A DNA stretch of 64,000 bases from Sabellastarte sp. h YS-2021 (taxonomy: Eukaryota > Annelida > Polychaeta > Sabellida > Sabellidae). The stretch's first letter is position 1. Every line of letters starts with the position of its first letter. The notes under the pieces were generated by a model. The model was not told where the DNA came from and searched no databases. It saw only the letters and a program-made list of their open reading frames with translations. A program made the translations under genes and the position numbers. Shown piece after piece: positions 36,470 to 64,000 of the stretch. The stretch lies in the NCBI GenBank assembly GCA_964017235.1, contig OZ024935.1:7998001-8062000 (forward strand), written 5' to 3'.

Positions 36470-37450
36470 CAACATATATATGTCGTGACAGAACATAAAA
36501 TCTGATAGAATTTAAAATTCTGTCAACAGAACTTCAAATTCTAAGTTCTGTCGACAGAACTTAAAATCCTTGGATTTCATTGGTTTGGAGGGATTTGAGG
36601 TTCTGTCGACAGAACTTAAAATTTTGTTGAAAGGACTTAAAATTGTGCTTATATAAATGTAATCAGATTAATAAAGTATAATATATTCATTTTAAACTTA
36701 TGGGTGATATGCACCATTAAACACATACATTATTCACTGAGATTAGCACTGCGATTGTAGACAAAAAACCAGCAAGCACCAGGCAGGACCAGGCTGACCC
36801 TGGCACCTCTTTATCAATTTTGAACTCCAGCTGTTTTTCTTCTTAATATTTTAATGTACATGTAATTTGGTTAATTGGACAAGCTACAGCTTGACCTTTA
36901 TTTGACTTGGTAGGGACATTGGTTGAGACTTGTAGGTGTGCAATGTCATGATGTTTACTTTTGATCTTACTGTAGTGACTTTGACCTTTAACATTTTGAG
37001 ATACAGGCATCTCTGATGCTATTTTATACTAGTTTATATTACACCTGTGAGTTTCTCTTGTGTTAAGTGTCCAATATCTTTCACAATTAGCCACTTTGTG
37101 ATTTTGACCATATATAGAAGTTTTTTAGCACATTTCCAAAGAAATCCTTTTACATTTATTTCAACTAAAATGATAATAACTGAAAAAATACACACCAGAA
37201 ATATAGAAATGAAAAGTAACGATGTTAAACATTCAGTACAAGTACTAAGCCCCCATTAAAATGTAATATACTCACTCATTGTAAATGAAGTTAAACTGAA
37301 TATAGAGAATCATCATTTTATCAGGATTTTAAGTTCTGTTGACAGAACTCAGAACTTTAAGTTCTGTCAAGATCTTTTGACAGAATTTTAAATTGTGTTG
37401 ACAGAATTTCAAATCCTGTCGACAGAACTTAGAATTTTAAGTTTTGTTGG
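36470..37450. repeat. Dispersed GTTCTGTCGACAGAAC palindromes
   Basis: A perfect 20-bp palindrome AAGTTCTGTCGACAGAACTT at 36543-36562, a 16-bp copy at 36600-36615, a core CTGTCGACAG at 37416-37425, and degenerate versions (TTCTGTTGACAGAAC near 37335, TTCTGTCAACAGAAC near 36517). No gene. Confidence 0.8.
36885..37025 (-). repeat. Minus-strand fragment of the 8.2/25.6-kb dispersed element
   Basis: The reverse complement contains AGCATCAGAGATGCC, AGGTCAAAGTCACTACAG and GGTGTGCAAT-type words in altered form (ATTGCACACCTACAAGTCTC, AACCAATGTCCCTACCAAGT). Confidence 0.7.
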
Positions 37451-43689: not shown

Positions 43690-45957
43690 GTGTGTATTAA
43701 GATTAGAATATAGTTTTATAGCCATACTACTGAATCTTTCTCAGTCAAATCACAGCGACCATAAAATTTCCTTCAGTTACCAAGGTTTCCTCGTGAAAAG
43801 GATACACCTCTTAAAATTTTAGTGTTCTTCTTATAAGAAGAAAATGAAAAGTGTAAATGATATAAATGTAATTTGTCAATCTATATGTGCTCTGTAATCA
43901 TAAAAATCAATTACCTCTGCTTGACTAAATTTTCTCTGAATGCTGAAATGATACTTACTATATAGTGTAATAACTTTTTAAAGGGTCAATGCAATGAATT
44001 AATTTTACAATCTAATTTGCACTCCAGATATTTCAGGGATTGTTCTTGAGCCCAAAGAACAGACACACAACATCCCATATTTTAATTTATACACAAGTTT
44101 ATCTCCGCATTTCTGCCTTTTCAACAAGTAGGCTGTTAAAGTATGTCAGGTCAGAGCAGAAATACACCACATTAGAACTTGAACACATTTTAATCTCATA
44201 AAATATATTGGGAGGTAGTAGGAAATCACTTGTGGAGAGTCTAGAAAGTAAGTCAAATTCCCTGTAGGGGTCAAACTGGGGTCATAAAATAGCTGATTTT
44301 GTGTTTTTGCCTTATGTCTCCTTTATTAATGCTCATACAGCTTTAGAATGTATTAAGATGTATTATTAATTGTACAGTTATATCAATATACATTACAGTT
44401 TATATCAATATACATGTGTACTATTATAAAGACAACCTCTGTTTAAATAATTAGGCAGCCTGTCAGGGGCGCTTACTTGTTTTCATGTAAGTTCTGCTGA
44501 TCACCACCACCGGATTATGGTCTCCCTTGAATAACTTCTTGTCATTTCAAATGTTTCTTTCCTGCTTATCTTTTTTTAAAACTATAGAGACGGGAAAAAT
44601 TTTGGAGATACTTTGTGGAGACCTGAAACTTTACTTTTTCCATATCTAACGTATATTGATATTGAAGTAGTTCAAAAAAAGACTCTTACTACCTTATGAT
44701 TTAAATATTAATGATGTTATGGCCATTTTAAACTTAAAATGTAGGGTTTTCAGTCCTTAACTCAGTTAATGCTAAAATGTTTGAAATAAAACTTGTGACA
44801 TTTATAAAGGTTTGCAGAAGGGGCATTCTCATTTTATGGTCACCTTAAAGATGCAATATGCATGAAGTTATGGTCACCTTACAGTGAAAAAAGGAAAAAC
44901 TTGCAGTGAAATTATAGAATTTTTAATCTCCAGCTATCATACTATTAAACTGATCTCAGTTAAATTTTGCTTATTAAAGATTACAATAGGGAAATTGTTA
45001 TTTCATATCCACCTTGGACTTCCAATACAAGTACCATCATGGCCATCTTGAAGTATAAATGAGGGTTTTCAGCTCCCAACTGACTTACTGTTCAATGACA
45101 TCAGTTCCACGTAACACATTGATTAAGCTTAAGGATGATTTTTAATGACCTTTTTACTTAAAATTCCTGTATTTAAGAGACTTTGGTCATCTTAACATAA
45201 TAAATATATAGTTTTTGCTCCCTCCTCATTTATTTTAAGACTTTTTAAAACCACACCTGCCACATGTATACTTAAAACAAAGTTTCTGTTATCTGGCAAA
45301 GCTAACCTCGTAGTGTTTTTGAAGTTATGGCATATTCAAAGAAAAAAATTGAGGTATTTAACATGCAGTGATGTGTTTATTAATATATTGTAGCTGATCA
45401 GTGTTCATATAATATAAATTCCCAATTTTAAGCACATTAAAAAACATCCCACATTTTCTGATTCCATTCTTGTGGAATTGTGTGGATCGAACTTTTCCTT
45501 TTTAGAAAAAAAACTTAAATTCAGCTTTTCTTTAGCAGCAGGAGTTGTTGATCTAGCTACTTATTCACATACACTATGTAAATTGGTCAAATATATAGGC
45601 TTGACTTCTTTCACAAGATAAGATGACTGGAAAAATCTTTCTCATAAACAGTTTTTCCTGTATAGTATATTGTGTATCTCCAGCTAATTGAAAAGGAATG
45701 GGTTCTGTTTTTCCTTCCTCTGTATTTGCTATTTTGTGATATCTATCTTGAGGCAGATTCATGGAAGTCCCACTCACTCACTGATGGGGTAGTGATGCCC
45801 CACTGTGCTTTGGGTGTTAACATATGTGTGTAAGATAATGTGTCACTGAGTGAAAAAGTTGATAAGGGATATTAAGAAGTATTCATTTCTTTTCATCAAG
45901 TGATATGCTTACAACTAATCTTTTTTTGAGGTAAATAATTCAAACAAGGACATTTAT
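43690..45957. other. Gene B intron 3, no gene recognised
   Basis: AT-rich. Repeated phrases such as TATGGTCACCTTA (44836, 44872) and ATATCAATATACAT (44380, 44403) hint at small old duplications. No exon or TE protein seen. Confidence 0.45.
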
Positions 45958-46083
45958 CTTTAGGTTCATGGTGTATTTCGTGCTTTTTATGTTATTGTGT
46001 TTTATTGACAGTTTTATTATGATATTTGTAATTTGCACATGGTTTATTTTGCATTTTGTTTTCTTTGTTGTTTGTTACTTTTT

Positions 46084-48005
46084 TTTTTATTCATATAAAC
46101 AACATACATAGACAAATAGTAGTACAATACATACATTACAATTGAACATTACACTACATACAGTACAATAGAATACAGTAGCTACATTACATTCTACTAC
46201 ATACATTACAAGAACAAACATGGCTACCAGATAAATTTTATTTCAAAGGGGGTTACTGTTAAATATTAAATTAAATTTTTAAATTTTTTAAACTTTTTTA
46301 AATAGTCTGGATTAGGTTTGCAATAAGCATCCATTTCCTTTTAAACTTTTCTGTGGAGTCTGTTATGGCATGGAGGTAAGATTGTTCATCATATACACGC
46401 TTGATGTTAAGTTGTAATGCTTTAAAACTAGGTTTACGACCATCTTTTAGACATAGAAACAAATATTTTTTTGTAATAAGAATAATGGCATTTAAAGAGA
46501 ATGGGATAGAGCCACGATCTTTAAGTCCGAGCAGTAGTGTTTTTTATCAATATTTAAAAATGAACCTGCTTCATTTTGAATCCAATTTCTTAGTAAAATC
46601 CATATTTCAGTGGAATACAGGCATTCAATAAAAATATGGATTATAGTTTCGGGCATATTTTTGCACAGGCGGCAGTGATTATTTTCAGATTTTTTTATCT
46701 TATGCAGCAAGACTTTTGTTCCCAATATACTATGAATGATTCTATATTGTAGCCAGATTATATGGTTATCTAGGATGGTTTTGAAGCATATTAAATGTAT
46801 ATTTTGCCATTCTTTGGGTTATAAATTGATTTGAAGTAACTGTTCCCACTTTTTTGTGTGTAATGGACTATCTTGGTTTTTTTGTCTTAGCACATCATAG
46901 AAGTCTTTACAACCTTTTTTTGACTTATGTATTAATGATAGTGTTGCAGGCCATATGGGTTTTTCTGGTATTAATTTTTTACTGTTGGTACCCTGTGTTT
47001 TTATCAATTTTCTTAAACCTGACTGCAGCCTATAATAATCAATAAAATGAAGGTTAACACGATAATTTTTTCTCACTTCCTCTAGGGTAAGCATGTTGCC
47101 ATCCCTATTGCATAGGTCTATTGCGTAGATGATCCCCACCTTATGACATTGTGCAAGGAAAAAAGTTTCATTTGAGATAATTGGATTATACCACAATGGA
47201 CAAGTGAGACATGACTGAGCAGAGCCCATTTGATTATGCAGTACTGTTTTCCATATATACAGAATATCCGCCCAAAATTTGTTTGAAGTTTTGTCAATAA
47301 TCGTTGCACAGTAAAGTGATCCCATATGTAATAGCTTCTCCAGTGATTTTATATTATATGTGCAAAGAAGCTGGTAATCAGAATTTGGATTTTGGATTAT
47401 TCTTCTTGGCCATGTTAGTTTAAGGGCTGATATTTGATTTTTGTGTTTTGATGTCGAGCATTTTTAAGCCCCCTCTGCTGTAGTCCAAGCACAAAGTATT
47501 TCCCTTTATTTTATCTGGTTTTTTATCCCATATAAATTCAAAGAATAACTGCTCCATTTTCTTTATAAACTGATCACTAGGGTCCGGAATACATAGGAAT
47601 AAATAGTTCAATTTAGATATTATAAGGGATTTCAGGACGGCTATCTTTCCTATAGGTGTCAATAGGTGTCTTTGCCATTGGGAAAGTGATGATTTTACAT
47701 TAATCAAAATTGGTTCATAGTTTAGACTGGGAATTTGTCTCAGGTCCACTGTAAAATTGATACCGAGTAGTGAAAAATTGTCGCAGCCCCAACGTAGTTC
47801 TTTGTCCACTTTCAGTTTAACTTTGGAGCCTTTGTTTCTCCCAACCCAGACTATTTGCGTTTTTTCTGTGTTAATCTTTAAACCAGAAATACTTCCAAAA
47901 ATTTCCAGCACATTGAGTGTAGCTTGGAGGGAGTCTTCAGTACCATCTAATATAATAGTGGTATCGTCAGCAAACTGTGTGATCTTTATCTGCATCTTTA
48001 TGATC
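46084..48005 (-). mobile_element. Nested L1-like LINE, 5'-truncated, with 41-bp target duplication
   Basis: The minus-strand element is inserted in the outer 3' UTR. The sequence starting TTTATTTTGCATTTTGTTTT is repeated at 46043-46083 and 48006-48046, 41 bp identical. The 3' end is at a T-run (46079-46088). The coding part covers RT motif C through the zf-RVT domain. It is the same family as 13500-16150. Confidence 0.9.
46492..47995 (-). pseudogene. L1-like ORF2 C-terminal half in three frames
   Basis: 47995-47420 has ITQFADDTTIILDGTEDSLQ (FADD motif C), LLTPIGKIAVLKSLIISKLN, FFEFIWDKKPDKIKGN and then DYSRGGLKMLD. 47325-46819 has the connection region (KGCKDFYDVLRQ). 46725-46492 has CRLCKNMPETIIHIFIEC (zf-RVT). 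Two frame changes separate them. The 5' truncation falls just before motif C. Confidence 0.85.
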
Positions 48006-48369
48006 TTTATTTTGCATTTTGTTTTCTTTGTTGTTTGTTACTTTTTACTTTAGTCTTTATTCTAGTCATTTCTTATAATGTTGTTTTTTTGGTCTTTTTG
48101 GCCATTTGTTAATTGTTATTTGTATATGTACTTTTGCGTATTACGGTCAATATTAGTTAATGTATTTGTTAGGTTTTAATAGTGCAGTATAACACGTAAG
48201 TGTTTTTGCACTTTAATTTTAAACTTACTTACTTACTTACTTTAGGTTCATGGAAGTAGAACCTTGTGGAAAGAATGCCTTGTCTGTTTTGAGAGAATGG
48301 AAAAAGCCTTAATAATATATAAAAAACCTTGTGCTGTCATGATGTTCAGATAGAATCATGTGTGAATTA

Positions 48370-48690
48370 AAATGTGTATTGACATATCAATATACTAGAA
48401 ACAAAGTAGAACAAGTAAGAAAACTGACATCTAAGATAACACATTTTGTGCAGTACAGCAGTGTGTGCAAGGATGGGTTCATGCTGTGATGGGCTTTCAT
48501 GATATTCACATATAGTCATGTGTGAATTAAAAATGTTAACAATAACATCTGACAACATGACTTTGTGTATTGAAATATCAGTATACTAGAAACAAAGTAG
48601 AAACAGTAAGAAAACTGAGATATAAGATAACACATTTTGTGCAGTATAGCAGTGTGTGCAGAGATGGGTTCATGCTGTGATGTAGCATAA
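48370..48690. repeat. Two-copy ~191-bp tandem duplication
   Basis: GTGTATTGACATATCAATAT at 48374 and GTGTATTGAAATATCAGTAT at 48565; both continue ACTAGAAACAAAGTAG, ATAACACATTTTGTGCAGTA and ATGGGTTCATGCTGTGATG. Diverged by a few percent to the eye. Confidence 0.85.
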
Positions 48691-48959
48691 ACAAATCTAG
48701 GGTCAAAGGTTCAAATGAGGCAGGCTCTCACTTTCCAAGCATCAAGTGAAGATTTTAAACATTACAAACTTGTGTGTTTTTAGTTTTGGTTTCTATCATG
48801 TTTAATGTGTGAATGAATTAATAGTTGAAATATATGCTTTCAGTTGAATTGATTGGCCCTTTAATTGTTAATAATTTTTTGTATTTGTATTTTCTTATTC
48901 CACAACAAAGGCATTGATTAACTTGTTGCTTTATAATGGTAGAAACATACACCTTCTTC

Positions 48960-49690
48960 AGAATCAATCCAGGTTGACAAGGATTGAGGGTTGAAGCAGA
49001 TTGTGAGTTGAGTGTCCACACTACAGAGTGTAACCTGGATAGAAAAGTGTCAAAAACTGAGAAAAATAAAGCCTCCAAATTTAAAAGAATCCATATTAAA
49101 ATTGTTTAAATAACAATTTTTTTAATATGATAAAATTAATGAAGATTTACAAGATTCCAATGTGATGTTATATGTCATACAGTTATACAGCTCATTAACT
49201 TTTATATAATCAACTTAACAGAAATTTTATATATTAAGACTGTGTCACTTTTTCAGCAACAGACCAATGAGAATCTTTTGAAATAGTTCTGCCTTTTCAA
49301 TTATCTCACCACAGTTACAAATATTCATATACTTTATGTCAAATTGCAATCATATAATAATCACACATCAATCACTTCTGGTGACATTTGTGTCATTTAT
49401 CTACCCTGCTAATAAAGAATTAAGAAATATATACATTAAGTTAAGAAGTTAATTCAAGGCAATATGTCAATTGGTTAGAGTAACAATACAATCAACCCTG
49501 TCAACCTGGATTGAGAGGGTTCACACTACAAAGGAGGCTGAAGCAATCTGCTTTAATCTATCTCTTTAGAAGGGTTGAGATTTACCCGAATCAGCTCAGA
49601 TTGTGACTTTTGAATTTGTGAGCATTCACACCAAATCCCAATCTGCTTCAGTCTGTGTCAACCTGAGGTGAATCACTAGCCTGAACACAC
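48960..49690. repeat. Related short repeats in opposite orientation, intron 3
   Basis: CCAGGTTGACAAGGATTGAG with GAAGCAGATTGTGAGTTGAG (48968-49008) resembles the reverse complement of CAATCTGCTTCAGTCTGTGT and CAACCTGAGG (49640-49675). GTCAACCTGGATTGAG also occurs at 49499. Probably a MITE-like family; ends not defined. Confidence 0.45.
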
Positions 49691-49918
49691 AGTATTTCCC
49701 AATATCCAGTCAGTACATTAGACTTATGAAGTGGATAACAAACAGGGACACACTCAACAGAAAGCACAACTAAGATGAACTACATTTAATAGTTGTATTA
49801 TCATGTCAGTTTGTGTCAGTTTTAATCCTGTTAATCTGTTGTTCTTAATTTAATAAAGTTTGTTGAAAAAGTTGTATTAGGTAGTCAGTACTTTAAATAA
49901 AACACTAAATTAAAAAAT

Positions 49919-50003
49919 TGATGGGCAATTTTCCTACCCATCACTTTAGCTGATGGGCAATTTTCCTGATAGGGTTCACTTGATGGGCATTTTTCCTGAG
50001 GGT
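49919..50003. repeat. Short tandem GATGGGCAATTTTCCT, three copies
   Basis: GATGGGCAATTTTCCTACCC, GATGGGCAATTTTCCTGATA and GATGGGCATTTTTCCTGAGG, in gene B intron 3, just upstream of exon 4. Confidence 0.85.
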
Positions 50004-50217
50004 TTTTTTTCGTACAGCCCAAACTTAGGATCCTAAATTGGGCTAGTAACAAACTTAAGATTGGCAAGATCTTATATTTTGCTTCAACAATTACAGAAAT
50101 GATTGTTGGTTCAGACATTACACGGAATTCTTGAAAGTTATAGTTATGGCTCCATTCATGTATTGAAAAATAAATTGATTATATGTATGTGTAAAGGAAC
50201 ATGTTTTCCTTCAACAG

Positions 50218-50743
50218 ATGAAATTATTGAAGTCCCAATTTCATGTCTGGTTGAACCATCCTCCTCGCGACTTCTGCGAGTTGCTGAAGAATGTCATGTT
50301 GCTGATTTGAAGGAAGAAATGATGTCCAACAAAATGAAGACAGCTTTGTTAATTGGACACTTGCCAAATGTTCAGAGAAAAGATTTAAATGTCCACCAAC
50401 TCAGGTCAGGGAACTACTGTATAGAGATTCTAGCAGGGAATCATAGAAGAATAGCACTGCAAGCAATAAGAAAGGAGACATCAGACCAGTTTTAAGAGAT
50501 GTGGCCAGTCATTATATATGCAGGGTTAACCGAGCAACAGGCATTGCGCATATCATACAGGGAAAACAAAACATTGAACTTTGCTAGGCCAACGACACTG
50601 CAAGACGAAACAATATTGTTTCGTCAGTGCCTGCTCTTGATCACTGCTGTTACCACAACAATAGGGAGAAAAGAAAAAGAAAGATGCTACAGTGACATAA
50701 GAGCCATCGCAGGGTACAAGGCGCATTCACATATTTTTCCTAA
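50218..50743 (+). CDS. Gene B exon 4, ParB-like segment with in-frame TAA
   Basis: The acceptor TTCAACAG precedes 50218, and phase 1 from exon 3 gives GDEIIEVPISCLVEPSSSRL. Further on are LIGHLPNVQRKDLNVHQLRS and GNYCIEILAGNHRRIALQAI. TAA at 50493-50495 follows SDQF; the same frame continues EMWPVIIYAGLTEQQALRIS, then YRENKTLNFARPTTLQDET. The GNHRxxAL box and a following LTEQQAL...REN box have the spacing of ParB/sulfiredoxin-fold proteins, where the Arg box binds phosphate or NTP; the assignment is by motif only. TTTTAAGAG may be a mutated TTTAAAGAG (F-K-E). The donor TAA|GTAAAA or a stop at 50747 ends the exon. Confidence 0.7.
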
Positions 50744-50920
50744 GTAAAACAAATCTTGTAAATAATTATCCCAGTGGTCTGGCATGGATTTATTGTGGCA
50801 GTTACTGGTCATAACAACTTATTCTCAACTGAGTAAAGTTTTTGAAAAACTGACATTTTAATGTTTCTCAAAATCTAAAAAAATATCTCGAGAATGCATT
50901 TTTCCTATTGAAAATATAGC

Positions 50921-51844
50921 TCATGTACTCTCTTTCCTGTTTGTCCAGTTTGGGTTGCATGGCAGGGCTTTGGCTTCTATTTTTGCTTGAAGTGCAGAGT
51001 TTGCTTGAAGAATTCTCTCAGCTATTTTGTTCTTTCCTGCTTGCTGTGCTTTTGCATATTGATAAGCATGCTCAGCTGATTTATGCATTATCCCAAAAAC
51101 TCTAAGCTCACAGGGAAAGAAGTTGCTTAGAGGGTTTTCTTTGACCGAAAATACAGTAACTGTCTTGTGTGGTTGCTTGGCAGTGCCAGAACATTTAGGG
51201 TCTCCTGGCCTGTGACTTTCCATCTTGCACACAACACAAACTTGCTCATTTGTGCACTGTGATCTGAAGTGTCCTTCCTGTAAGCAATGTGTGCACTTGA
51301 TCACTGGTTTTGGTTGCCCTCTGTGATAGATGCGTACTTTAGAGTCCCCAATCCAGGTAACTCTTGGCAATGGATCACTGAAACTGTCAACAAAAACTGT
51401 TCGATCGCCGTTTAACCATTCAGTTAACTCATTCTGATCATTTCTAGCCTTTGCATATTCAACTGGTGACCTCAATTTTATCCCTTGTGTCATTAAGTAC
51501 TTTTCAACACCCTTGTTTCCTTTTGAAATAGGCAAGTCTTTTATGGTAATTTTCATTATATTTTCATCAGTTTCTCCAGGGGCCAATTTTGCTCTCACTG
51601 GGTTGTTGCTAAAAACACCCACTCTCTGTTCCCTGATCACAATCCCATTGGCAAGTAGAGTCATCCTTGATTCATGATTCTTTGTGTAAACTCTCCACAC
51701 CATACCTATTCTTTGCACTCCAAGTAAACATGACCTTTCAATAGAGTCACATATTGCCACACACAGCTCCACTTCTTTCAGTGTCTTGAAATTAGGAATT
51801 TCCATAGCTCTTATAAACACAGGGGCCACATTTGGCAGCTCCAT
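50921..51844 (-). CDS. Retroelement ORF1: zinc-knuckle protein fused to a NADAR domain
   Basis: 307 residues from ATG at 51844. Residues 1-180 are a gag/ORF1-like region (FVDSFSDPLPRVTWIGDSKV, RIYHRGQPKPVIK). Zinc knuckle 1 is CTHCLQEGHFRSQC (184-197, CX2CX4HX4C); knuckle 2 is CVVCKMESHRPGDPKC (203-218, CX2CX4HX6C). From ~230 to the end is VTVFSVKENPLSNFFPCELR and MHKSAEHAYQYAKAQQAG, matching the first half of NADAR (YbiA-like N-glycosidase acting on ADP-ribose-type or riboflavin-intermediate substrates), with the PLSNFxPC and SxEHAYQ boxes and the Glu (268). A stop after CNPNWTNRKEST cuts the domain where family members continue with a W-x-R-x-x-VM box; a small frameshift is likely. It lies antisense in a gene B intron. 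No RT is adjacent. Confidence 0.75.
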   Translation of the reverse strand: MELPNVAPVFIRAMEIPNFKTLKEVELCVAICDSIERSCLLGVQRIGMVWRVYTKNHESRMTLLANGIVIREQRVGVFSNNPVRAKLAPGETDENIMKITIKDLPISKGNKGVEKYLMTQGIKLRSPVEYAKARNDQNELTEWLNGDRTVFVDSFSDPLPRVTWIGDSKVRIYHRGQPKPVIKCTHCLQEGHFRSQCTNEQVCVVCKMESHRPGDPKCSGTAKQPHKTVTVFSVKENPLSNFFPCELRVFGIMHKSAEHAYQYAKAQQAGKNKIAERILQANSALQAKIEAKALPCNPNWTNRKEST

Positions 51845-52554
51845 TGTTCTCTTGTGTACACTTAATTAATTAACTTTCAGTCTGATTATTTATCACAGTA
51901 TAAAACTGGTTGAAATGTCAAATTTTAAACTTCAAAAATCAGATAATTTAATCTTCTTTTCAGTACAATAGAAGTATCTTCTTATTCTATATTAAACTAT
52001 AAACCTTATTATCCAAAAAAGTTCCAGTTGTTTTGTTGTCACTTCATGTATTTTAAACAAACTATACAGAGTGACAAAAACAGGTCTTCTGTACAGAATA
52101 CCTTGACCTTCATCGCTCGCATATAGCTCATGTACGCTTGCATGAAACTTTTTATCAAATCTCTATGAACTTTCGAAATTCCGGATTTCATTAGGTTTCA
52201 AAGACCAGAAAACCAGTATTTTCACAACCGATCTGATCACTAATATTTTACTATCTTAACATTGTACTTTGTTTGGCCTTAAAATTGAAGATACTTATTA
52301 CTACATTTTAATTGCTAAAAATTGTCAGCATGTGCTTGAAAGTTTGCCGATATATTTTGATGTTATGATCAAACATGGTATTTAGAGCCAAGAGTTTAAA
52401 AACTAAACGTGCTTTTCTTAGTATTTTCAGATTTAAAAGTTCCAACAATTCAGTATTTCAAAAGTATAAGAGATAACTAGACTTATGCTGCTCGCTTTAT
52501 TGTGAGCCAGCGGTGTATTCCTGAACATAACAAACCTGTAGAAGGAATAATAAA

Positions 52555-53035
52555 AGACATAGAAGCTGAAGATTCCTGAAGTTATAAGCATGTTTAAGTT
52601 TGGCTGTCCTGATTTGACCTTGAAGGAGGGGTCCAAGGTGAAATGTTACCAAATCAAAAGATTCCCAACCCATGATTTCCTATATGTTGGTTTCACAACC
52701 CAAACCTTTAGGATGATTAAGAAGTGAGTTATCAGCACTTTTTAAGTTTGGCTATGCTCATTTGACCTTGAAGGAGAGGCAAAAGGTCACATCTGACCAC
52801 ACCAGAAGTACATGATTTCCTATAGGTTAGTTTAATATCTCAAACCACTAGGACCAATAATAAGCGAGTTATAAGCACTTTTAGGTTTTGCTATGCTTGT
52901 TTAACCTTGAAGGAGAGGCCCAAGGTCAAATCTGAGCACACCAAAAGATTCACAGCCCATGATTTCCTATATGTTAGTTTCACATTCCAAACCTCTATGA
53001 CCAATAATAAGTGAGTCATAAGCTCTTTTAAAATA
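52555..53035 (-). repeat. 144-bp tandem repeat (minus orientation)
   Basis: About 3.5 units containing AGTTTGGCTATGCTCATTTG, ACCTTGAAGGAGAGGC, CCATGATTTCCTATATGTTA and CAATAATAAG(T/C)GAGTTATAAGC. This is the reverse complement of the array at 12140-12780. Confidence 0.85.
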
Positions 53036-53404
53036 GTTTTCAAGTGATTTACTCAACAGTGAGAACGTCAAAGTAGCTATTACTCAGCTATGCAGTGAGC
53101 TACAGGTCTGTAATTTTACTATGTTACAGCTGACCCAAAAGAAGCTGAATATCATATTTAAACCAAATTCTGTAAATGCAATAGTTTTCAAGTTACAAGT
53201 CAAAGTTGAACGCAAGAAAATCTCTGCGGATGAGGCTGCGGATGATGACCTTGCATGATCCATAATATCCCTGCTTTTCCGAGATATAATTACAGTATAT
53301 TTTATTTTGCATACTATACGACTGCTCAATAAATATACTGTTCAAACTCTTACAATATAATTAGATATAGCTATTTGCTTATTTGGCTCTATTATTATTT
53401 ATAG

Positions 53405-53622
53405 ACAAATTCAGAAATCAATTCAAAGGCTAGAATACAAACAAAGTTAGCCAGGTCATCTGAGGCAGTATGGAATAAACTGAAAACTGTCTTTGCCATG
53501 TGGGACTCTAGTGCCTTGAAGGTAAGTGGGAAATCTACCAGTATCCCACAAGGCGTTTTCAAGACATTTCACAAGATCCCAGATGAAGAGAAGCTCACAG
53601 CTTTGGACATGCTGATTGCCAA
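53405..53622 (+). CDS. Gene B exon 5
   Basis: The acceptor TATTTATAG precedes 53405; the donor CCAA|GTAATG follows 53622. It reads TNSEINSKARIQTKLARSSE, then AVWNKLKTVFAMWDSSALKV, then SIPQGVFKTFHKIPDEEKLT and ALDMLIA. It ends in phase 2 and joins exon 6 as Asn. An internal AAG|GTAAGT near 53521 is a perfect donor too and could give a shorter isoform. No known domain. Confidence 0.6.
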
Positions 53623-54436
53623 GTAATGAACGGTTGGTAATTTCATCAACAAATGCAAGGAAATGAATTAAAAATGGTGAGTTCAAGGTCCCCATAGTAA
53701 TGTTGTGCTATTAATCTATGATATAGTTGAATAAAAAGCTTTTGGGAACACAAACCACTATTTATTTTATTTTAACTGTAGTTATTTAAATGGGTGTACA
53801 ATTATTCAGTCATTGTCTAAACTAGTGTAGAAATATTTTTATCTATCAAATATCATTGTTTTGTATCTGTTTATTTTATATTCACTTAGACATGCACCCT
53901 CAAATTTTATCAATTTAAATAAGAAATGCAAGTAAATGATTATGCTAGGAAGATAAATCAAATATTACATTAAAACAAGGATAATAGACTCAAATCACCA
54001 CAAATATAAACAAAATATAACTTAAATGCTTTTCACAAATGTGTCCATCACTACATGCTTTACATGCTCTCACTTGTGACTGTCTGAGGTGTCAATCACT
54101 TTGACAACCATGGGGCACCCTGTTTTTCTGTTTATTTTATATGTTTGAATTTATGATCACTTTTGTGATTTTAACCAGTGAATTTACCAAATTTTTACAA
54201 AATAGATTTCTAGTCTTTGTAACAAAGAGTATAACAAAAAAGATGAGTTTTAAAACTATTGGTTGTACTTGAATTTTATTGATCAAAGCTCAGTAATGAA
54301 CCAGGAAAAGATAACACCAAAGTTTGCACACATGGTCCCAGAAACAGTAACTGATCAGTTATTTTATAACTCAATTTTTGTAAACTTAAATCTAATATCT
54401 GGGTTAAACATATCTTTTAATGAATATCCAAATCAG

Positions 54437-54530
54437 TGCTGCAGCAGATGAATTAGTGGATGAAGATGATACTGAGTTAGAAGAATTGAAAGCAGTAGGA
54501 CAAGAAAACACAGGTTCTCCTTCAGACAAG
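54437..54530 (+). CDS. Gene B exon 6, acidic
   Basis: The acceptor CCAAATCAG precedes 54437; the donor AAG|GTAATT follows 54530. It reads AAADELVDEDDTELEELKAV and then GQENTGSPSDK. A run of Asp/Glu suggests a disordered acidic region. Phases fit on both sides. Confidence 0.65.
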
Positions 54531-54756
54531 GTAATTAAAAATGTTCTATGTTGATAGAATTGAAAGAAAACAATTGCAGTACATGTACATGCTTTGAAAA
54601 TAGAAAACTCCCTTGTCAGTATATTAATTCAGGAAAACATTAAATCAAGAAAACCATCAGAAACTAAGAAATTAAAAATATAACATTATTAGATTGAAAG
54701 GCACAGTGCACTTGTTAATACATGTATATTATCCTAATTTCTGCATTTATTTACAG

Positions 54757-54834
54757 ATGTGCCATGCTTGTACATTACACCTGGCTGAATGTGAAAGAAA
54801 AGAAAAACAGATTCAAGACTTGGTCATAATCTGA
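54757..54834 (+). CDS. Gene B last exon, CxxC and helical tail
   Basis: The acceptor ATTTACAG precedes 54757. In phase 0 it reads MCHACTLHLAECERKEKQIQ, then DLVII, then TGA at 54832-54834. CHAC plus a heptad-like helix (LHLAECERKEKQIQDL) suggests a short coiled-coil tail. A CR1/L2-like LINE begins about 150 bp downstream. No obvious polyadenylation signal is assigned. Confidence 0.6.
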   Translation: MCHACTLHLAECERKEKQIQDLVII

Positions 54835-55126
54835 TTGCCCAAAAGGTTACCCTCATTTGATCTAGTGGATGTATCATACATTTTATTACTTAACAAATTT
54901 AAAGTGAAAGGAAAGACATTATCAGGAATTTGGGGGTTTTAACATTTATTAATATGAAACGTTTAGTGGACAGAAAAAAAAAACAAGCAAGTTTCAAAAA
55001 AACAGTTATCAGGCTTTTGAAATTATCTCCATTCAGATTAGCACTGAGGGTGATAAAGATGTTATATTTCATGTAGTCTATAGGCCCCCAAATCTCTCAA
55101 AGTCGCAGTTCCTAGACGAATTTGGC

Positions 55127-55627
55127 ATGTTCCTCGAAGGTGCTGCTTTATCAGGCTATGAAAATATTCTCCTTGGTGATCTTAATTTTAATCTGGATAA
55201 ACATGACACCTGGACATTGAAATTTTATGATATCCTTGAGCAATTCAGTTTTACACAACTTGTCAATACACCCACACATATTCAGGGTCATATTTTGGAT
55301 GCTCTATGTGTGAGGGATTCCTTCTCCTGGGCCATTAGTCCCAAAGTTATTGGGGGACTATCAGACCACCAGGCAATCATATTCAGCTTTATCTTCCCTG
55401 TCAGGGAATCCTGTAAGTTTCAATGTGTTCCCATCCGTAAAATTCACAAGATAAATATTTCAGATTTTAGAATGGATATCCTGAAATCCGACCTCATTAG
55501 ATGCCCATACAAAACTGCCAGTCTTCTCAGTCATCAATACTTTAATACTTTGAGAAGCCTTCTTGACAAGCATGCCCCAATCATGAAGAAAAATATACCG
55601 AGGCATGCCGAGACTTCTCCTTGGTGA
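55127..55627 (+). pseudogene. LINE endonuclease C-terminus, first copy of the duplication
   Basis: The frame has LLGDLNFNLDKHDTWTLKF (GDLN box), ALCVRDSFSWAISPKVIGGL and SDHQAIIFSFIFPV (SDH box), then RADG-like linker sequence. It ends at the duplication junction near 55617 because the 448-bp unit shifts the frame by one. Confidence 0.85.
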
Positions 55628-56064
55628 TCTTAATTTTAATCTGGATAAACATGACACCTGGACATTGAAATTTTATGATATCCTTGAGCAATTCAGTTTT
55701 ACACAACTTGTCAATACACCCACACATATACAGGGTCATATTTTGGATGCTCTATGTGTGAGGGATTCCTTCTCCTGGGCCATTAGTCCCAAAGTTATTG
55801 GGGGACTATCAGACCACCAGGCAATCATATTCAGCTTTATCTTCCCTGTCAGGGAATCCTGTAAGTTTCAATGTGTTCCCATCCGTAAAATTCACAAGAT
55901 AAATATTTCAGATTTTAGAATGGATATCCTGAAATCCGACCTCATTAGATGCCCATACAAAACTGCCAGTCTTCTCAGTCATCAATACTTTAATACTTTG
56001 AGAAGCCTTCTTGACAAGCATGCCCCAATCATGAAGAAAAATATACCGAGGCATGCCGAGACTG
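55169..56064 (+). repeat. 448-bp tandem duplication within the LINE
   Basis: TCTCCTTGGTGATCTTAATT at about 55168 recurs at about 55616, and both copies run on to CATGCCGAGACT. I see one difference (ATATTCAGGG in copy 1, ATATACAGGG in copy 2). The length is 3n+1, so the duplication breaks ORF2. Confidence 0.95.
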
Positions 56065-58016
56065 GTTTCATGAACTGTGACATCCTCAAAGCAAAACGAC
56101 TCAAGAGGAAATATGAGCGGGCATGGCATTGTGAAAACTCAGCCAGTAATCGTAGCCGATACCGGGCTGCAATCAACCACTATAATTTCCTGTTAGAGAA
56201 GTCCAAATGCAATCATTATTCCAACATTGTGGCTGAAAACCAAGGAAATCCCAAAGCTCTGTGGAACTGTTTCAAAAAGATCTTACACAGGTCCTCTGCT
56301 GCTGTTCTACCAGACTACACAAATAAAACTGACCTTGCGAACACTTGCTGCAAGTTCTTCTATGACAAAATCCTCAAGATAAGATCCACACTGCAGTCAT
56401 CAATACCATCTTTAGTTACTAGACCCAACCCCACTAAAAATACTCTGTCCTCTTTCACACCTGTGTCTGAGGAAGAACTACTCAAAATTCTAAAGTCCTC
56501 ACCGTCCAAATCATGTGACCTTGACCCGATTCCGATGTCACTGGTCAAGGAGTGTGCTGATATTCTCATCACCCCCATCACTAAAATTGTAAATTATTCA
56601 ATCACAGAAGGTAGTTTCCCCAACTGTTTTAAGATGGCATATGTCACTCCCCTTCAAAAGAAGCCGAGCCTTGATAGAAATATCCTCAAAAACTACAGGC
56701 CGGTGTCAAACCTCAACTTTATATCTAAACTTATTGAGAAGGTGGTGGCAAAGCAGCTAAATGAATTTATTTCGCACGAGGGGCTCTTAAATGTCAACCA
56801 GTCTGCTTATAAGAGTTCTCACTCCACTGAAACCACATTGTTGAAGATTCAAAATGATATAGCTCTCTCAGTGGACTCAGGAAAGGCAGTGGCCCTAACA
56901 TTATTAGACCTATCAGCAGTGTTTGATACGATTGATCACTCTCTTTTATATGACTGCTTGCATGACTGGTTTGGTCTAGATGGTACTGTTTTGTCATGGA
57001 TCAAATCGTATCTTTCAAACCGTAAACAAAAAATTAAAATAGGTGATAGTTTCTCTGAGGCGGTAATTCTCCCTTTCGGAGTCCCCCAAGGCTCTGTACT
57101 GGGTCCTCTCCTGTTCACCCTCTACAATGGTCCCCTCAGTCAAGTTATTTCAAAATTCAATGTTACTCATCACCTATATGCCGATGACACCCAGATCTAC
57201 CTAGCAGTTGACTCCAGGAATTTTGACTCTAGCATGGAAGAGCTGACCGAGTGTCTCAAGTCTGTACAGGAATGGATGGATGGTGTCAAACTAAAACTAA
57301 ACCCAGAAAAAACTGAATTTATCACTATAGGTCAAAAAGCCATCAGAGAGTCACTTGCACCAAATTTTCCTGTTCCACTCCTCCAAAACAATATCTCTCC
57401 GTCGGTGGAAGTAAAAAACCTGGGTGTTATTTTCGACTCAGACAACTCCTTTGACAATCATGTTGCCAAGGTTTGCAGAGCATGTTACTATCATCTTCGT
57501 GATTTGCGACGAATTCGCAAATTCCTTGGAGTTGAGACAGCAATACTTGTGGCAAACACTATGGTCAGTAGTCGTCTAGACTACTGTAACTCTTTACTCT
57601 ATGGGGTAAGCAAGTCCAACATAGCCAAACTACAGAGAGTCCAGAATGCTCTTTGCCGTGTCATCTTCAGACTTGACAAAATGAGTCATGTTACACCCTT
57701 TTTGAAAAAACTCCACTGGCTCCCAATTCAACATCGCATCCTGTTTAAGTACAACGTTTTGGTATTCAAGGATATTAATCCTTCACAGCCCCCGTATCTT
57801 TCAGCTTTAATAAGATCGAGCAGTCTCACTCGTGACAACAGGCTATCTATCTCCTCAACCCACCCTAATAAGCACATAGGAAGGCGTGGCTTTGCAGTAG
57901 CTGCACCAGCCGAATGGAACAAGCTGCCACAGACTGTCAGATCTCAGCAAACAATAGATGGTTTCAGAAGCCAGCTAAAGACCTACTTGTTTAGGCTGGC
58001 ATACCCCCCACCTTAG
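55605..58016 (+). CDS. LINE ORF2: endonuclease C-terminus and reverse transcriptase
   Basis: An 803-codon frame, uninterrupted. The endonuclease end (GDLN, SDHQAI) is at residues ~7-75. Then come an RNA/DNA-binding-type linker, RT fingers with LLKILKSSPSKSCDLDPIPM and KNYRPVSNLNFISKLIEKVV, motif A LLDLSAVFDTIDHSLL, motif B PFGVPQGSVLGPLLFTLY, motif C HHLYADDTQIY (YADD) and thumb KNLGVIFDSDNSFDNHV. The C-terminus reads PAEWNKLPQTVRSQQTIDGF and RSQLKTYLFRLAYPPP, standard for CR1/L2. The catalytic Asp residues are present, so this part could be active, though the N-terminal endonuclease half is missing. The annotated start MPRLLLGDLNF lies in the duplication, so it is not a natural start. Confidence 0.85.
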   Translation: MPRLLLGDLNFNLDKHDTWTLKFYDILEQFSFTQLVNTPTHIQGHILDALCVRDSFSWAISPKVIGGLSDHQAIIFSFIFPVRESCKFQCVPIRKIHKINISDFRMDILKSDLIRCPYKTASLLSHQYFNTLRSLLDKHAPIMKKNIPRHAETGFMNCDILKAKRLKRKYERAWHCENSASNRSRYRAAINHYNFLLEKSKCNHYSNIVAENQGNPKALWNCFKKILHRSSAAVLPDYTNKTDLANTCCKFFYDKILKIRSTLQSSIPSLVTRPNPTKNTLSSFTPVSEEELLKILKSSPSKSCDLDPIPMSLVKECADILITPITKIVNYSITEGSFPNCFKMAYVTPLQKKPSLDRNILKNYRPVSNLNFISKLIEKVVAKQLNEFISHEGLLNVNQSAYKSSHSTETTLLKIQNDIALSVDSGKAVALTLLDLSAVFDTIDHSLLYDCLHDWFGLDGTVLSWIKSYLSNRKQKIKIGDSFSEAVILPFGVPQGSVLGPLLFTLYNGPLSQVISKFNVTHHLYADDTQIYLAVDSRNFDSSMEELTECLKSVQEWMDGVKLKLNPEKTEFITIGQKAIRESLAPNFPVPLLQNNISPSVEVKNLGVIFDSDNSFDNHVAKVCRACYYHLRDLRRIRKFLGVETAILVANTMVSSRLDYCNSLLYGVSKSNIAKLQRVQNALCRVIFRLDKMSHVTPFLKKLHWLPIQHRILFKYNVLVFKDINPSQPPYLSALIRSSSLTRDNRLSISSTHPNKHIGRRGFAVAAPAEWNKLPQTVRSQQTIDGFRSQLKTYLFRLAYPPP

Positions 58017-58136
58017 TTATACCCTGGCGGGCGCTTTTTAGATGTCGACCCATGCCTGTCCCTGGACTCTCCCTTCTTGGACTCAAGCGCATTAGAGGAT
58101 TTGTATCAATTTTGCGCTATATAAATCCTACTATTA

Positions 58137-58140
<4 letters not shown>

Positions 58141-58190
<50 letters not shown>
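58141..58190. repeat. (TA)25 microsatellite at the LINE 3' end
   Basis: A pure TA run of 50 bp directly after the GCGCTATATAAAT end and a short ATTACTAA. The LINE ended in a short repeat that has probably expanded. Confidence 0.95.
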
Positions 58191-58191
<1 letters not shown>

Positions 58192-59024
58192 TCCTGGATT
58201 CATCATTAGGTAGACACTTCGGTGTAAATACACCACCTTAGGTAGACATTTTACTTAGGTAGACATTTTCGTGTCTACTTAATGTTTAGACCTCTGAAAA
58301 ATTATTTTGGGTTGACTTAAAAATGACAAGTGTAGTTTCATCCCATTCTTTGGTAGCTATAATTTTAATAAAATCATTTTGTATTTCAAATTTTCATGAA
58401 GTAAAGCAACAATAACAACTCAAAGTTTTGAAGTGTATATTTTCCTTAAGTAGACAGTGTGTAAAAACCTCACTTAAGTAGACATAAATTAAATTTAAAA
58501 TATTTAAAAAGTTAATAGTGTATATGTAAATTATATTTATACTGTGGGGTAAAGAATTTTTGAAAGCATCATTTAAACTTTGTTTTAAGTTTTTCCCTCC
58601 ATATATAAAAAAACTAGAAGACACATACTTTTTTCATGCCAAATATACATTTTGAACTAAATGTCTGCATGTGTACATCGTACTTGTGTACTCATATATA
58701 GCTGCAACATTACATTCATGCATGATAAATTTTCTTGTTTCATCTTTTTGGCAAAAGAAAGATGTCCCATTATTTTTTGATTTGGCGATTTTCCATAGTT
58801 GTTCATGATCCTAATATTAAGATAGCTAACCTCAATTTCCCAGTATAATTATCTATTAACGAGCATTCTTCATAAAAGAATGAGCCATTTGGAGTTTCTT
58901 TCATAAAAAACGTTCAAACAGTAAATATATTACATGGGTTTTAACAAAGCCTTTGATTTCTCAGTATTAATAAATTAGGCAATTTTTATGTTGATATTTT
59001 CTGGTCATCATTTTACTAACTCAT
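58191..59024. other. No gene; short TAGGTAGACA repeats
   Basis: TTAGGTAGACATTTT recurs at 58207, 58240 and 58255, with TTAAGTAGACA at 58448 and 58474. Otherwise AT-rich sequence before the minisatellite. Confidence 0.6.
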
Positions 59025-62000
59025 TCTCACCACTTACTAATTCCCACCACTTACTAAGTCGTTCCCACCACTTCCTAAGTTGTTCTCACTTACAAACTAA
59101 TTCCCACCACTGACAAAGTCATTCCCACCACTTACTAAGTCGTTCCCACAGCTAAGTAAGTCATTCCTACCACTTACTACGTCATTCCCACCACTTACTA
59201 AGTCGTTCACACCACTTACTAAGTTGCTGGAACAAGATACTAACTGGTAACTACTAGACAGTAGGTCCTTCTGTATTCAATCATACTCATCCCTTGCTAT
59301 TTCCTTCCCCTCATATACTAACTTATTCCAGCCCCTTTGCTAAGTCATTCGAACAACTTACTTAGTTGTTCCCACTGAATAACTCATTCCCGCCACTTAC
59401 AAAGTCGTTTCCAGCATTTACTAAGCTGTTTTTACCACTAGGTAAGTCATACACATCACTTACTAAGTCGTTCCCACCACTCCCTAAGACGTTCCCACCA
59501 CTTAATAAGTTGTTCCCTCCAATTATTAACTCATTCCCACTGCTTGCTAACTTGGTCCTAGCACTTATTAACGCATATCCACCTCTTACTAAGTCATTCC
59601 CACCACTTAATAAGTCATTCCCACCAATTATTAACTCATTCCCACAACTTACTAATTCATTCCAACCACTTACTAAGTTGTTGGAACAAGATACTAAGTG
59701 CTTACCACAAGACAGTAAATCCTTGTGTTTTAGTCATACTCATCCCTTACTAACTTTTTTCCCCACTTAATAACTTATTCGCGTGATTTACCAAGTCATT
59801 TAAACAACTTACTAAGTCGTTCCCACTAATTATTAACTCATTCCCACCACTTACTAACTCATTCCTACCACCTACTAAGTTGTTGGAACAAGATGCTAAG
59901 TGGTTACCACAAGACAGGTAATCCTTGTGTTTTTAGTCATACCCATTCCTTACCAACTTGTTCTCCCACTAACTAACTTATTCCCACCACTTACTAAGTC
60001 GTTCCCACAACTTACTAAGTTGTCCCTACTTACTAACTCGTTTGCACCACTTACAAAGTCGTTTCCACCACTTGCTAAGTTGTTCCAAGCACTAAGTAAG
60101 TCATACCCAGCACTTACTAAGCCGTTCCCACCACTTACTAAGTCATTCCCACAACTTATTAAGATGTTCCTACCAATTATTAAATCATTCCCACCACTTA
60201 CTAACTCATTCCAACCACTTACTAGGTTGTTGGAACAAGATACTAAGTGGTTACCACAAGACATGTAATCCTTGTGTTTTCAGTCATACTGATTCCTTAC
60301 TAACTCGTTCCCCTCTTACTAATTTATTCCTGCCACTTACTAAGTCGTTCCCACGACTTACTAAGTTGTTCCTACTTACTAACTCGTTCCCATCACTTAC
60401 AAGATCGTTTTCACCAATTACTAAGTTGTTCCAAGCATTAAGTAAGTCATACGCATCACTTATTAAGTCGTTCCCACCACTTGCTAACTTGATCCCAGTA
60501 CTTGTTAACTCATTCCCACCACTTACGAACTCATTCCAGCCACTTACTAACTCGTTCCCATCACTTGTTAAGTAATTCCCACCAGTTAAAAGTTGTACCA
60601 CAAGATATTATGTTGTTGTCAAGATTATCATGGTATGACACATACAAAGAAATAGCCGGTACATTGGTATTGAAGCATAATTTAGTGACTTTTGGGAATG
60701 ACTTAGTATGTTGTGATACTGATTTGCTAACTCATGGGAATTAAAATGCTTGTGGTAACAACTTGCTAAATTGTTGTGGAAAGAACTTATTATCTTGTGG
60801 GAAGGACTTTCTATCTTGTGGGAACAGCTTACTCTCTCATGGTAACAAGATAAAAAATCATAGGAAAACAGTTTTCCTATAATTTTTATCTCGCTACCAA
60901 GAGATAGTAACTCATTCCCACAAGATAGCAAGTCATTACCACAAGATAATAAGTCGTTCCCACAAGTCAGTAAATTGTTACCACAAGATACTTAGTTGTT
61001 CCCTCGAGATCTTTCATTCCATACCATACCTAACTGACCTTAAGGGAACAACATAAAATCTTGCGGTAGCAACTTTTTAACTTGTGAGAATGACATAATA
61101 AGCGGTGGGAATGAGTTAATAAGTGGTGGGAATGAGTTAGCAAGTGGAGGGAATGACTATGCAAGTGGAGGGAATGAGTTAGCAAGTGATGGGAACAAGT
61201 TAGCAAGTGGTTAGAACAAGTTAATAAGTGGTGGGATCAAATAAGTAAATGGTGATAATGAGTTAGTAAGGGGTGAAAACGCAAGGTTTTGCTATCTTGT
61301 GATAACCAATTGGTATCTTGTTCCCACAAGTTAGTGTCTTGTTCCTATAAGTCAGTAGCTCATTTCCATGACTTAGTATCTCATTACCACAATTTACTAA
61401 GTTGGGAAATGACTTAGTATATTGTGGTAACAAACTTCTTCCCATGACACAGCAAGTCATCCCCAATAAGTTACTAAGTCATGCTATGATGCCAATGTAC
61501 AGGCTATTTCTTTCAATATCAAACCTTACTGACCTTGAAGGAACAACATAAAATCTTGTGGTAACAAATTTTTCATGGTGGAAATAACATAACATACTAA
61601 GTGGTGGGAATAAGTTAATAAGTGGTGGGAATGAGTTAGCAAGTGGTGAGAACGATTGAGCAAGTGGTGGAAATGCCTAAATAAGTGGTGGGAATGATTT
61701 AATAAGTAGTGGGACTGACTTAGTAAGTGGTGGCAATGAGCTACTAAGTGGTAGGTACAACTTTGTAAGTGGTGGAAACGAGTTAGCAAGTGGTTGGAAC
61801 AAGTTAATAAGTGGTGGGAAAAAGTGATGGGAACCAGTCAATGAGGCATGATTGGTGGCAATGAGTTAGTAAGGGGTGGGCATAAATGAAAGCACAAGAA
61901 TTTCCAACCTTGTGCTAACCAATTAGTATCTTGTTCCAACAAGTTAGTATCTTGTTCCCACAAGTGAGTAACTCATTCCCATGACTTAGTTTCTCATTAT

Positions 62001-64000
62001 CACAAGTTAGCATCTCATTACCACCACTTACTAAGTTGGGAGAATGACTTATTATCTTGTATTAACAATGTGCTAACTCAATCTCATTACTCCACTTACT
62101 TAGTATGGGAAACAACACAAGTATCTTGTGGTAACGACTTGCTAACTTGTGTTAACAAAATAAAATAATGAAACCCAAACAGATCTATATCCCTTCCTAG
62201 ACTCCTTAAATATTAAGTCATTGGACAACCAAATGCTATTTAAAAGTTCATATGAAATGCACAATAATTAGAAATTTTAACAAAACAAACACCAATTTGC
62301 TTAATGTTACATAAAGAATGATTTTCAGCAGAAAAATAAACTGGATATATTTAGTGGAATTTGCCCCTAAATATTTTATTTTCAAGGTATCGTTCATAAA
62401 GTTTCCAGTTAAATTGGGAATGACTTGCTAACTTGTGAGAATGACTCGTTAAATTGTGGGAATGACTTGCTATCTTGTGGGAACAACTTGCTAACATGTA
62501 AAAACGACTTGCTATCTTGTAAGAATGACTTGCTAATGTGTGGGAATGACTTGCTTTCTTGTGGGAGTGACTTGCAAACTTGTGGGAATGACTTGCTATC
62601 TTGTGGGAATGAATTGCTAACTTGTGGGACTGACTCGCTATCTTGTCGGAATGACTCGCTAAATTGTGGAAATGACTTTCTATCATGTTGGAACAAATTT
62701 AACTTGTGAGAACGACTTGCAAACTTGTGGGAATGACTTCCTAACTTGTGGGAATTACTTGCTATCTTGTGGGAACAACTTGCTAGCTTCTGGGAATGCC
62801 TTGCTGTCTCATGGGAACAACTTGCTAACTTGTAGGTACGACTTGCTGTCTTGTGAGAACAACTTCCTAACTTGTGGGATCAACTTGCTATCTTGCTAGA
62901 ATGACTTGTTGGAATTACTTATCTTGTGGGAACAATTTGCTATCTTGTGGGAACAACTTTATAACTTGTGGGAATGACTTGCTATCTTGTGGGAACAACT
63001 TGCTAACTTGTAGGAGCGAATTGCTATCATGTGGGAACAACTTGCTAACTTGTGAGAATGACTTTCTATCTTATTGGAATAAAGTTAACTTGTGAGAACG
63101 ACTTGCAAACTTGTGTGAATTACTTGCTATGTTGTGGGAGCAACTTGCTAAGTTCTGGGAATGCCTTGCTATCTCATGGGAACAACTTGCTAACTTGTAG
63201 GAACGACTTGCTGTCTTGTGACAACTTCCTAACTTGTGGGATCAACTTGCTATCTTGCTAGAATGACTTGTTGGAATTACTTGTTATCTTGTGGGAACAA
63301 TTTGCTATCTTGTGGGAATGACTTGCTAACTTGTGGGAATGACTTACTATCTTGTGGGAACGACTTGCTAATTTGTGGGAATGACTTACTATCTTGTGGT
63401 AACAATTTTCTAACTTGAGAGAATGACTTAGTATCTTATGGTAATGACTTACTAATTGGGAACAAGATAAAAAATGATAGGAAAACAGTTCTATGTCCCT
63501 TCCTGGGCAATGTACAATGTACAGGCAATTCCTTTGTATATAATACCTAACTTACCTTGAGGGAGCAACATAATACCTTATGGTAAGAACTTTTTAACTG
63601 TTTTTAACTGTAAGACTTAATAAGTGGTGGGAATGAGTTAATAAATGGTGGAAACAAGTTAGCATGTGGTGGGAGTGACTTGGCAAGTGGTGGAAAGAGT
63701 TAGCAAGTAGTGGGAAAGACTTAGTAAGTGCTGTGAGCAACTCAGTAAGTGGTGATAACAACTTAGTAAGTGTTGGGAATGACTTAGTAAGTGGTGGGAA
63801 TGAGTTAGTAAGTGGTGGGAACAGATAGCAAGTGGTGGGAATGACTTAAAAGTGGCGAGATTAGGAACGAGCTACTAAGTGGTTGGAACGACTTAGTAAG
63901 TGGTGAGAATGAGATAGCAAGTTGTGGCAACTAGTTAATAGTAGTGCGAGTGACTTAAGAAGTGGTGTGAACAAATAATTAAGTGGTGGGAACGACTTAC
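59025..64000. repeat. 21-bp minisatellite field with orientation switches
   Basis: The unit in 59025-60600 is TCCCACCACTTACTAAGTCAT (21 bp). In 61080-61260, 61570-61850 and 63610-64000 it is the reverse complement, AAGTGGTGGGAATGACTTAGT. In 62410-63430 it is a sister variant, TTGCTATCTTGTGGGAATGAC. Mixed blocks lie between. Interspersed longer modules recur: ACAAGATACTAAGTGGTTAC with CAGACAG/CCTTGTGTTTTTAGTCATAC (59225, 59690, 59885, 60235), and AGGGAACAACATAAAATCTTG (61035, 61535, 63560 in variant form). Frames of SFPPLTK or CGNDLLS repeats are by-products of the 21-bp period. The array runs off the right end. Confidence 0.95.

Follow-up and report, generated by a model that had tools for sequence, protein, structure and literature searches.

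What kind of gene joins retroelement-like zinc knuckles to part of a NADAR domain, and why does its reading frame stop inside that domain? This question is raised by a locus in the window, the whole 64,000-nucleotide stretch of DNA analyzed here, in which the original prediction had placed an open reading frame (ORF) at 50921..51844. A frame call found the ORF at exactly these coordinates, on the minus strand, which the prediction had left unstated. The coding frame runs from 51844 to 50924, with the stop codon ending at 50921, and counts 307 codons from the first ATG or 314 codons from stop to stop. This length exceeds that of the longest open frame in every shuffle, both of the window (100 dinucleotide shuffles, at most 181 codons compared with the 314 observed from stop to stop) and of the 1192-bp insert described below (500 shuffles, at most 192 codons, none of the 500 reaching 314).

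Given its 34.5% G+C, a CpG observed/expected ratio of 0.28 and several retroelement fragments, we take the window to be eukaryotic and probably from an animal genome. When a second copy of the ORF was sought in the window, only the self match and one 33-amino-acid match at an E value of 2.7 were obtained. No reverse transcriptase (RT) frame follows the ORF, and the minus strand holds no frame of at least 100 codons between 48053 and 50921, in a scan that covered open frames of this length.

Zinc knuckles and the region preceding them

The two CCHC knuckles predicted at residues 184-218 were recovered by pattern match, knuckle 1 at residues 184-197 (51254..51295, minus strand) with the spacing CX2CX4HX4C and knuckle 2 at residues 203-218 (51191..51238, minus strand) with the spacing CX2CX4HX6C. 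Scanned in six frames with the knuckle pattern, the window yielded three matches; besides the two knuckles, there is a match in the same stretch on its opposite strand. Knuckle 1 also matched Pfam zf-CCHC (E 0.0092; 16.5 bits, under the cutoff of 20.8), and retroviral nucleocapsids in the PDB matched the knuckles weakly (best E 0.17, in a sequence search with the whole frame up to E 1). The scores are weak, yet both CCHC motifs are complete.

The region ahead of the knuckles, residues 1-183 (51296..51844, minus strand), had no Pfam match up to E 1, capsid included, and AlphaFold2, run on the single sequence without an alignment, gave an unusable model with a mean pLDDT of 35.5. By eye, we take this region to consist of two RRM-like units, which is an impression. 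The available text of PMC4120745 and PMC3905857 defines type I LINE ORF1 proteins by an RRM directly before the CCHC knuckles. Our frame resembles these Jockey-like proteins, which combine one or more RRMs with CCHC knuckles, in that its knuckles follow a region read as RRM-like by eye, and it differs from them in adding an enzyme domain after the knuckles. Of the two defining parts, the CCHC knuckles are present; the RRM drew no Pfam match, and the pLDDT of the model was too low. That a LINE ORF1 can contain an enzyme is known from the ORF1 proteins with an esterase domain (PMC3905857), which differ from our frame in that the enzyme is an esterase and not NADAR and in that, according to the excerpt of that paper, none of the RepBase ORF1 proteins of this kind has an RRM.

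The NADAR half-domain

The original prediction had claimed similarity to NADAR and proposed a profile search as the check. Several profile and alignment routes agreed in finding the N-terminal half of a NADAR (YbiA-type) domain at residues 229-305 (50930..51160, minus strand). PHROG 1017 matched residues 225-306 at E 5.4e-13 (profile positions 4-88 of 170). NCBIfam TIGR02464, the riboflavin-intermediate YbiA-type N-glycosidase, matched at E 3.1e-7 with 30.8 bits, under its cutoff of 73.7, and Pfam NADAR matched residues 235-305 at E 7.8e-5 (profile positions 9-90 of 163) with 23.4 bits, under its cutoff of 35.1. L001, a complete NADAR on an IMG/VR contig, is 36% identical to the ORF over 77 columns (E 3e-6 against the window), and a profile of three viral NADARs matched the ORF with an hhalign probability of 95 and an E value of 2.9e-8 in a single comparison. 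PHROG 1017 itself carries no function label; we read it as NADAR through L001, because L001 passes the TIGR02464 cutoff (83.0 bits against 73.7) and scores 148 bits on PHROG 1017. Judged by profile match, the segment can be assigned to the NADAR superfamily (YbiA type), with TIGR02464 and Pfam scoring below their curated cutoffs.

The Pfam, PHROG and NCBIfam matches all break off mid-profile, and when the window was searched with the C-terminal half of the L001 NADAR, no match had an E value below 0.67, so "half-domain" was the right word for what the prediction had seen. Its fusion to the knuckles is likewise borne out, since both lie in the single 307-codon frame. NADAR chains in the PDB were reached only with a profile built from the ORF and the three viral sequences; sequence searches of the PDB with the whole frame (up to E 1) or with the NADAR piece alone (up to E 10) returned no NADAR chain. 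The half-domain also matched terminase small subunits weakly (Pfam Sf6_terminase, 0.074; PHROG 1482, 0.025), which we attribute to chance.

Up to the break, the three viral NADARs have 25 invariant columns, and the ORF keeps 16 of them, including S-N-F, G-I, E-H, Q, K, A-K, W and K (among these E258, H259, Q262, K265 and W300). The nine that are lost include the arginine after the A-K pair, which is isoleucine in the ORF. E. coli YbiA (2b3w), PHROG 1017 and L001 share this N-terminal half with the ORF, the E-H-x2-Q-x2-K motif being found in L001, and differ from it in having the complete domain and no knuckles. Residue roles in an oomycete NADAR, including those of E43, K50, W89 and E125, are described in the available text of PMC11543638. 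We took chain 8bau to be this protein on the grounds that five named residues fit one constant offset and that the code is mentioned once in the paper; mapped by hand through this chain, E258 falls on E43, K265 on K50 and W300 on W89. The glutamate and lysine largely conserved across the superfamily (E88/K95 of E. coli C7 and E43/K50 of the oomycete protein) are present, by this hand mapping, as E258 and K265. Among the ADP-ribose contacts R79, W89 and R93, the hand mapping finds the tryptophan kept as W300 and lysines (K292 and K304) at the positions of R79 and R93, as in L001. The second acidic residue (E125/D171) and the entire C-terminal half are absent from this copy, both E125 and W133 belonging to the missing half. 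Because the second half of the active site is missing, the copy should not be a working hydrolase. The prediction of a NADAR enzyme holds as regards the identity of the domain and probably does not as regards an active enzyme in this copy, which looks like an insertion truncated inside NADAR.

With an 80-amino-acid NADAR piece, tblastn found no match in phage and plasmid collections. A scan of genome contigs yielded 21 stretches that fit a pattern, none of which was confirmed. Among viral contigs, the whole frame had a single hit, which was confirmed and is L001; the knuckle piece had nine, none confirmed; two fixed-gap DNA patterns found none; and the L001 NADAR as a query had six, three of which were confirmed, one being L001's own contig. 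No protein combining knuckles and NADAR was found in the viral and genome contig collections, which hold few or no animal sequences.

The probable insertion and its origin

The locus is flanked by a perfect 15-bp direct repeat, ATATAGCTCATGTAC. The window contains this 15-mer just twice, at 50914-50928 and 52121-52135, and the opposite strand lacks it. The copy at 52121..52135 lies on the 5' side and that at 50914..50928 on the 3' side of an inserted segment of 1192 bp (50929..52120, minus strand), and we presume the pair to be a target-site duplication. The insert consists of a 276-nt leader (51845..52120, minus strand), presumably a 5' untranslated region, and of the first 305 codons of the frame with one further base; the NADAR domain breaks off one base before the repeat edge. 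Codons 306 and 307 and the stop (50921..50929, minus strand) have eight of their nine bases within the repeat, that is, in target DNA. Near its start, at leader positions 18-39, the leader harbors an imperfect 22-nt palindrome (20 of 22 positions matching). A structured leader was rejected on an overall fold z score of 0.05, and a known RNA family on the lack of any Rfam match in 48000-56000.

In 3000 paired shuffles (50860-50960 against 51845-52500), a 15-mer was never shared, a 14-mer was shared in 0.2% and a 12-mer in 1.6%, figures that serve as a guide and not as a formal test, the repeat having been spotted by eye before the shuffling. Direct repeats of at least 14 bases lying 0.5-2.5 kb apart were also listed, with low-complexity pairs dropped (339 of 431 kept), words occurring more than 20 times dropped and starts inside the arrays at 4900-6500 and 58500-63500 omitted. 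Among the pairs so listed, the 15-bp pair is the only one between 48300 and 58500, the others being located in an array near 4800, at 26632-28183, at 35714-37416 and at 45958/48240. The two copies are identical at 15 of 15 positions, which suggests that the insertion is not old. The 3' end of the insert is devoid of poly(A); a hand count gives 12 A among the final 22 bases of the insert. A target-site duplication, 3' truncation, no oligo(A) and an A-rich end, all found here, are the features that define tailless retropseudogenes in the available part of PMC5322556, which documents for mammalian L1 that retrocopies may lack both the tail and the 3' end, bear target-site duplications and arise from priming at internal A-rich sites. 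As we read it, the insert has the anatomy of a tailless retrocopy that was primed internally during target-primed reverse transcription, as in mammalian L1.

The insert is probably a tailless retrocopy in which the 5' end of a LINE-type RNA is preserved and the 3' part is missing, comprising the leader and 305 codons of an ORF1 with an RNA-binding part, two CCHC knuckles and NADAR. A LINE reverse transcriptase would have nicked the target, priming would have occurred internally, where an A-rich stretch of the RNA falls in the part that codes for NADAR, and copying would have continued to the 5' end of the RNA. The domain would thereby have been cut and the frame would run into target DNA, which would have supplied the last two residues and the stop almost wholly. 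In favor of a LINE origin, the NADAR domain breaks at the edge of the repeat, and the window holds LINE fragments closest to L1 among solved RTs, one of them likewise with a perfect 14-bp direct repeat close to its ends (45958 and 48240). Against it, neither an RT nor an endonuclease is attached to the copy, the link to a reverse transcriptase being one that we infer, and LINE insertions are often truncated at the 5' end, according to the excerpt of PMC4120745, whereas this insert lacks the 3' end.

Other template RNAs could also account for the repeat and the truncation, since tailless copies also arise from mRNAs (PMC5322556, available part), and the insert might be a retrocopy of a host mRNA, with LINE machinery having copied a cellular or domesticated CCHC and NADAR gene that does not belong to an element. 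NADAR proteins are present in many invertebrates (PMC11125620, in excerpt), and no RT ORF is linked to the copy; the intronless state of the insert is not decisive between element and host mRNA, because a copied mRNA would be equally intronless. The published precedent, however, is of NADAR in LINE ORF1 proteins (PMC12477816, in excerpt), and CCHC knuckles are a stock part of LINE ORF1 proteins in the available text of PMC4120745 and PMC3905857, so that we regard a host mRNA as an unlikely source. Less likely still is that the frame represents the first coding exon of a resident gene, with the remainder of NADAR in later exons and the direct repeat present by chance. The frame is intact, and a GT stands at the break (minus strand, ...AAAGAGA followed by GTACAT), but the match to a splice donor, judged by eye against the consensus, is weak, the C-terminal half of a complete NADAR gives nothing better than E 0.67 in the window, and the repeat sits at the break, with 0 of 3000 shuffles sharing a 15-mer. 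A spliced gene was rejected as the first choice on account of the weak donor site and the lack of a second NADAR half in the window.

The original prediction had called the product a Gag-type retroelement protein, and the retroelement-like character of the knuckles stands, the likeliest parent being a LINE ORF1 rather than an LTR-element Gag. We consider the Gag of an LTR retroelement with an acquired NADAR highly improbable. Its knuckles do weakly resemble retroviral nucleocapsid (best E 0.17), but no repeats of at least 40 bases flank the insert in 44000-60000, and hence there are no LTRs; no RT frame follows the insert, and Pfam finds no capsid in the N-terminal part. Integrases leave flanking repeats of 4-6 bp, compared with the 15 bp seen here. 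NADAR is carried by Ectocarpus Gypsy elements, a point in favor of an LTR parent, though there it is located in Pol (PMC12477816, in excerpt).

LINE fragments lie near the insert. On the minus strand, the end of an ORF2 at 46492-48037 has human L1 ORF2p as its best solved relative (5e-20; R2, 0.28) and also has a zf-RVT match. Its distance from the ORF would suit one 5-kb element, but it was rejected as the rest of the NADAR element, as it has its own perfect 14-bp repeat near its ends and the minus strand is free of frames of at least 100 codons between 48053 and 50921; the NADAR-bearing insert ends inside ORF1 at 50929, without an ORF2, and the 46492-48037 fragment is taken as a separate insertion. 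The LINE ORF2 fragment delimited by these perfect 14-bp direct repeats, at 45958 and 48240, spans 45958-48253 (minus strand) and contains a 41-bp exact repeat (46043-46083/48006-48046) and, at its high end, a run of TAAG units, and it suggests a rearranged or twin-primed insertion. The borders of the LINE at 46492-48037 are unclean, in that the repeat spanning 48006-48243, which is 86% like 1116-1359, overlaps the 14-mer by four bases.

Elsewhere in the window, one part of a LINE fragment at 13784-16182 scores 1.7e-8 with L1 and 0.0013 with R2, and its part at 13787-15166 has no PDB match. A plus-strand LINE at 54953-58016 combines a match of endonuclease type with a long frame for RT (RVT_1, 3e-33); a 449-bp segment of its endonuclease part is duplicated in tandem (55167-55615/55615-56063, 99.8%), and there the frame is interrupted. 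Its frame at 55587-58013, by eye not L1-like, still scores 1.1e-11 with L1 and 1.3e-8 with R2. Being closest to L1 is weak evidence of clade, since L1 and R2 were the only LINE enzymes to arise among solved structures and the frame at 55587-58013 also favors L1.

The remaining features are of other kinds. Two adjoining plus-strand frames at 50103-50747 have no Pfam match up to E 0.1 and, with the motif '..ILAGNHRRIALQAI..', may be remnants of a decayed ParB-like protein. A minus-strand series at 20094-24730 includes an RT (RVT_1, 4.4e-11) and a frame without a Pfam match that we take to be tyrosine recombinase-like, presumably pointing to a possible DIRS/Ngaro-type element. A frame at 9826-10293 matches DUF7869 (E 1.6e-31) and is perhaps part of another mobile element. 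The repeat arrays at 4786-6617 and 59000-62900 are open in several frames and encode repetitive peptides, likely a chance effect of tandem repeats. An interspersed repeat at 52580-53032 and 12144-12770 has sub-repeats of ~140-147 bp and recurs in the opposite orientation elsewhere in the window.

Candidate function of the parent protein

A LINE ORF1 parent, the reading that we prefer, has published counterparts. In the excerpt of PMC12477816 (2025), YbiA-family NADAR domains appear to be part of the ORF1s of oyster Tx1 LINEs, which independently supports the joining of NADAR to a retroelement protein, Ectocarpus Gypsy elements have NADAR at the N terminus of Pol, and a role in RNA-intermediate processing is suggested for the domain; L1-Tx1 elements are reported from 35 mollusc species in the available part of PMC10294476. 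With the Pacific oyster Tx1 ORF1 (PMC12477816), our copy shares a YbiA-family NADAR in a protein of the animal LINE ORF1 kind, and it differs in keeping the 5' part only, with no ORF2 and no RT. The Ectocarpus Gypsy elements described there likewise fuse a retroelement protein to a YbiA-type NADAR and differ in being LTR elements of a brown alga in which Pol, and not ORF1, bears the domain. The ORF suits the published pattern of NADAR in LINE ORF1 proteins and is therefore another example of a known combination.

NADARs remove ADP-ribose from guanine, an activity kept in eukaryotic members, and act as antitoxins of DarT1 (PMC11543638, available text), and their role in eukaryotes, animals included, is called unclear in the excerpt of PMC11125620. 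The ORF1p of an intact parent would cover the RNA of the element, and NADAR would act on the nucleic acid held beside ORF1p, stripping ADP-ribose from guanine of the RNA or cDNA or clearing another N-glycosidic lesion. Removal of ADP-ribose would shield the intermediate from a host ADP-ribosyltransferase, and the clearing of ADP-ribose adducts from the retrotransposition intermediate is the most likely candidate function. The parent domain may alternatively take part in RNA processing or clear reactive riboflavin intermediates, in the manner of metabolic YbiA. If the truncated copy is expressed in the first place, it would do no more than bind nucleic acid. A bolder picture, which we regard as a long shot, is that of an animal LINE ORF1 chaperone with a built-in guanine de-ADP-ribosylase that erases a host ADP-ribosylation defense directed at retrotransposon RNA or cDNA, with 3'-truncated copies of this kind that could be expressed as enzymeless knuckle proteins and so disturb the parent element.

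The window contributes one further, truncated example to the pattern published in 2025 (PMC12477816, in excerpt). A NADAR inside the RNA-binding protein of a retrotransposon would mark nucleic acid ADP-ribosylation as a hurdle for mobile elements in animal cells, and it offers a concrete protein for assay.
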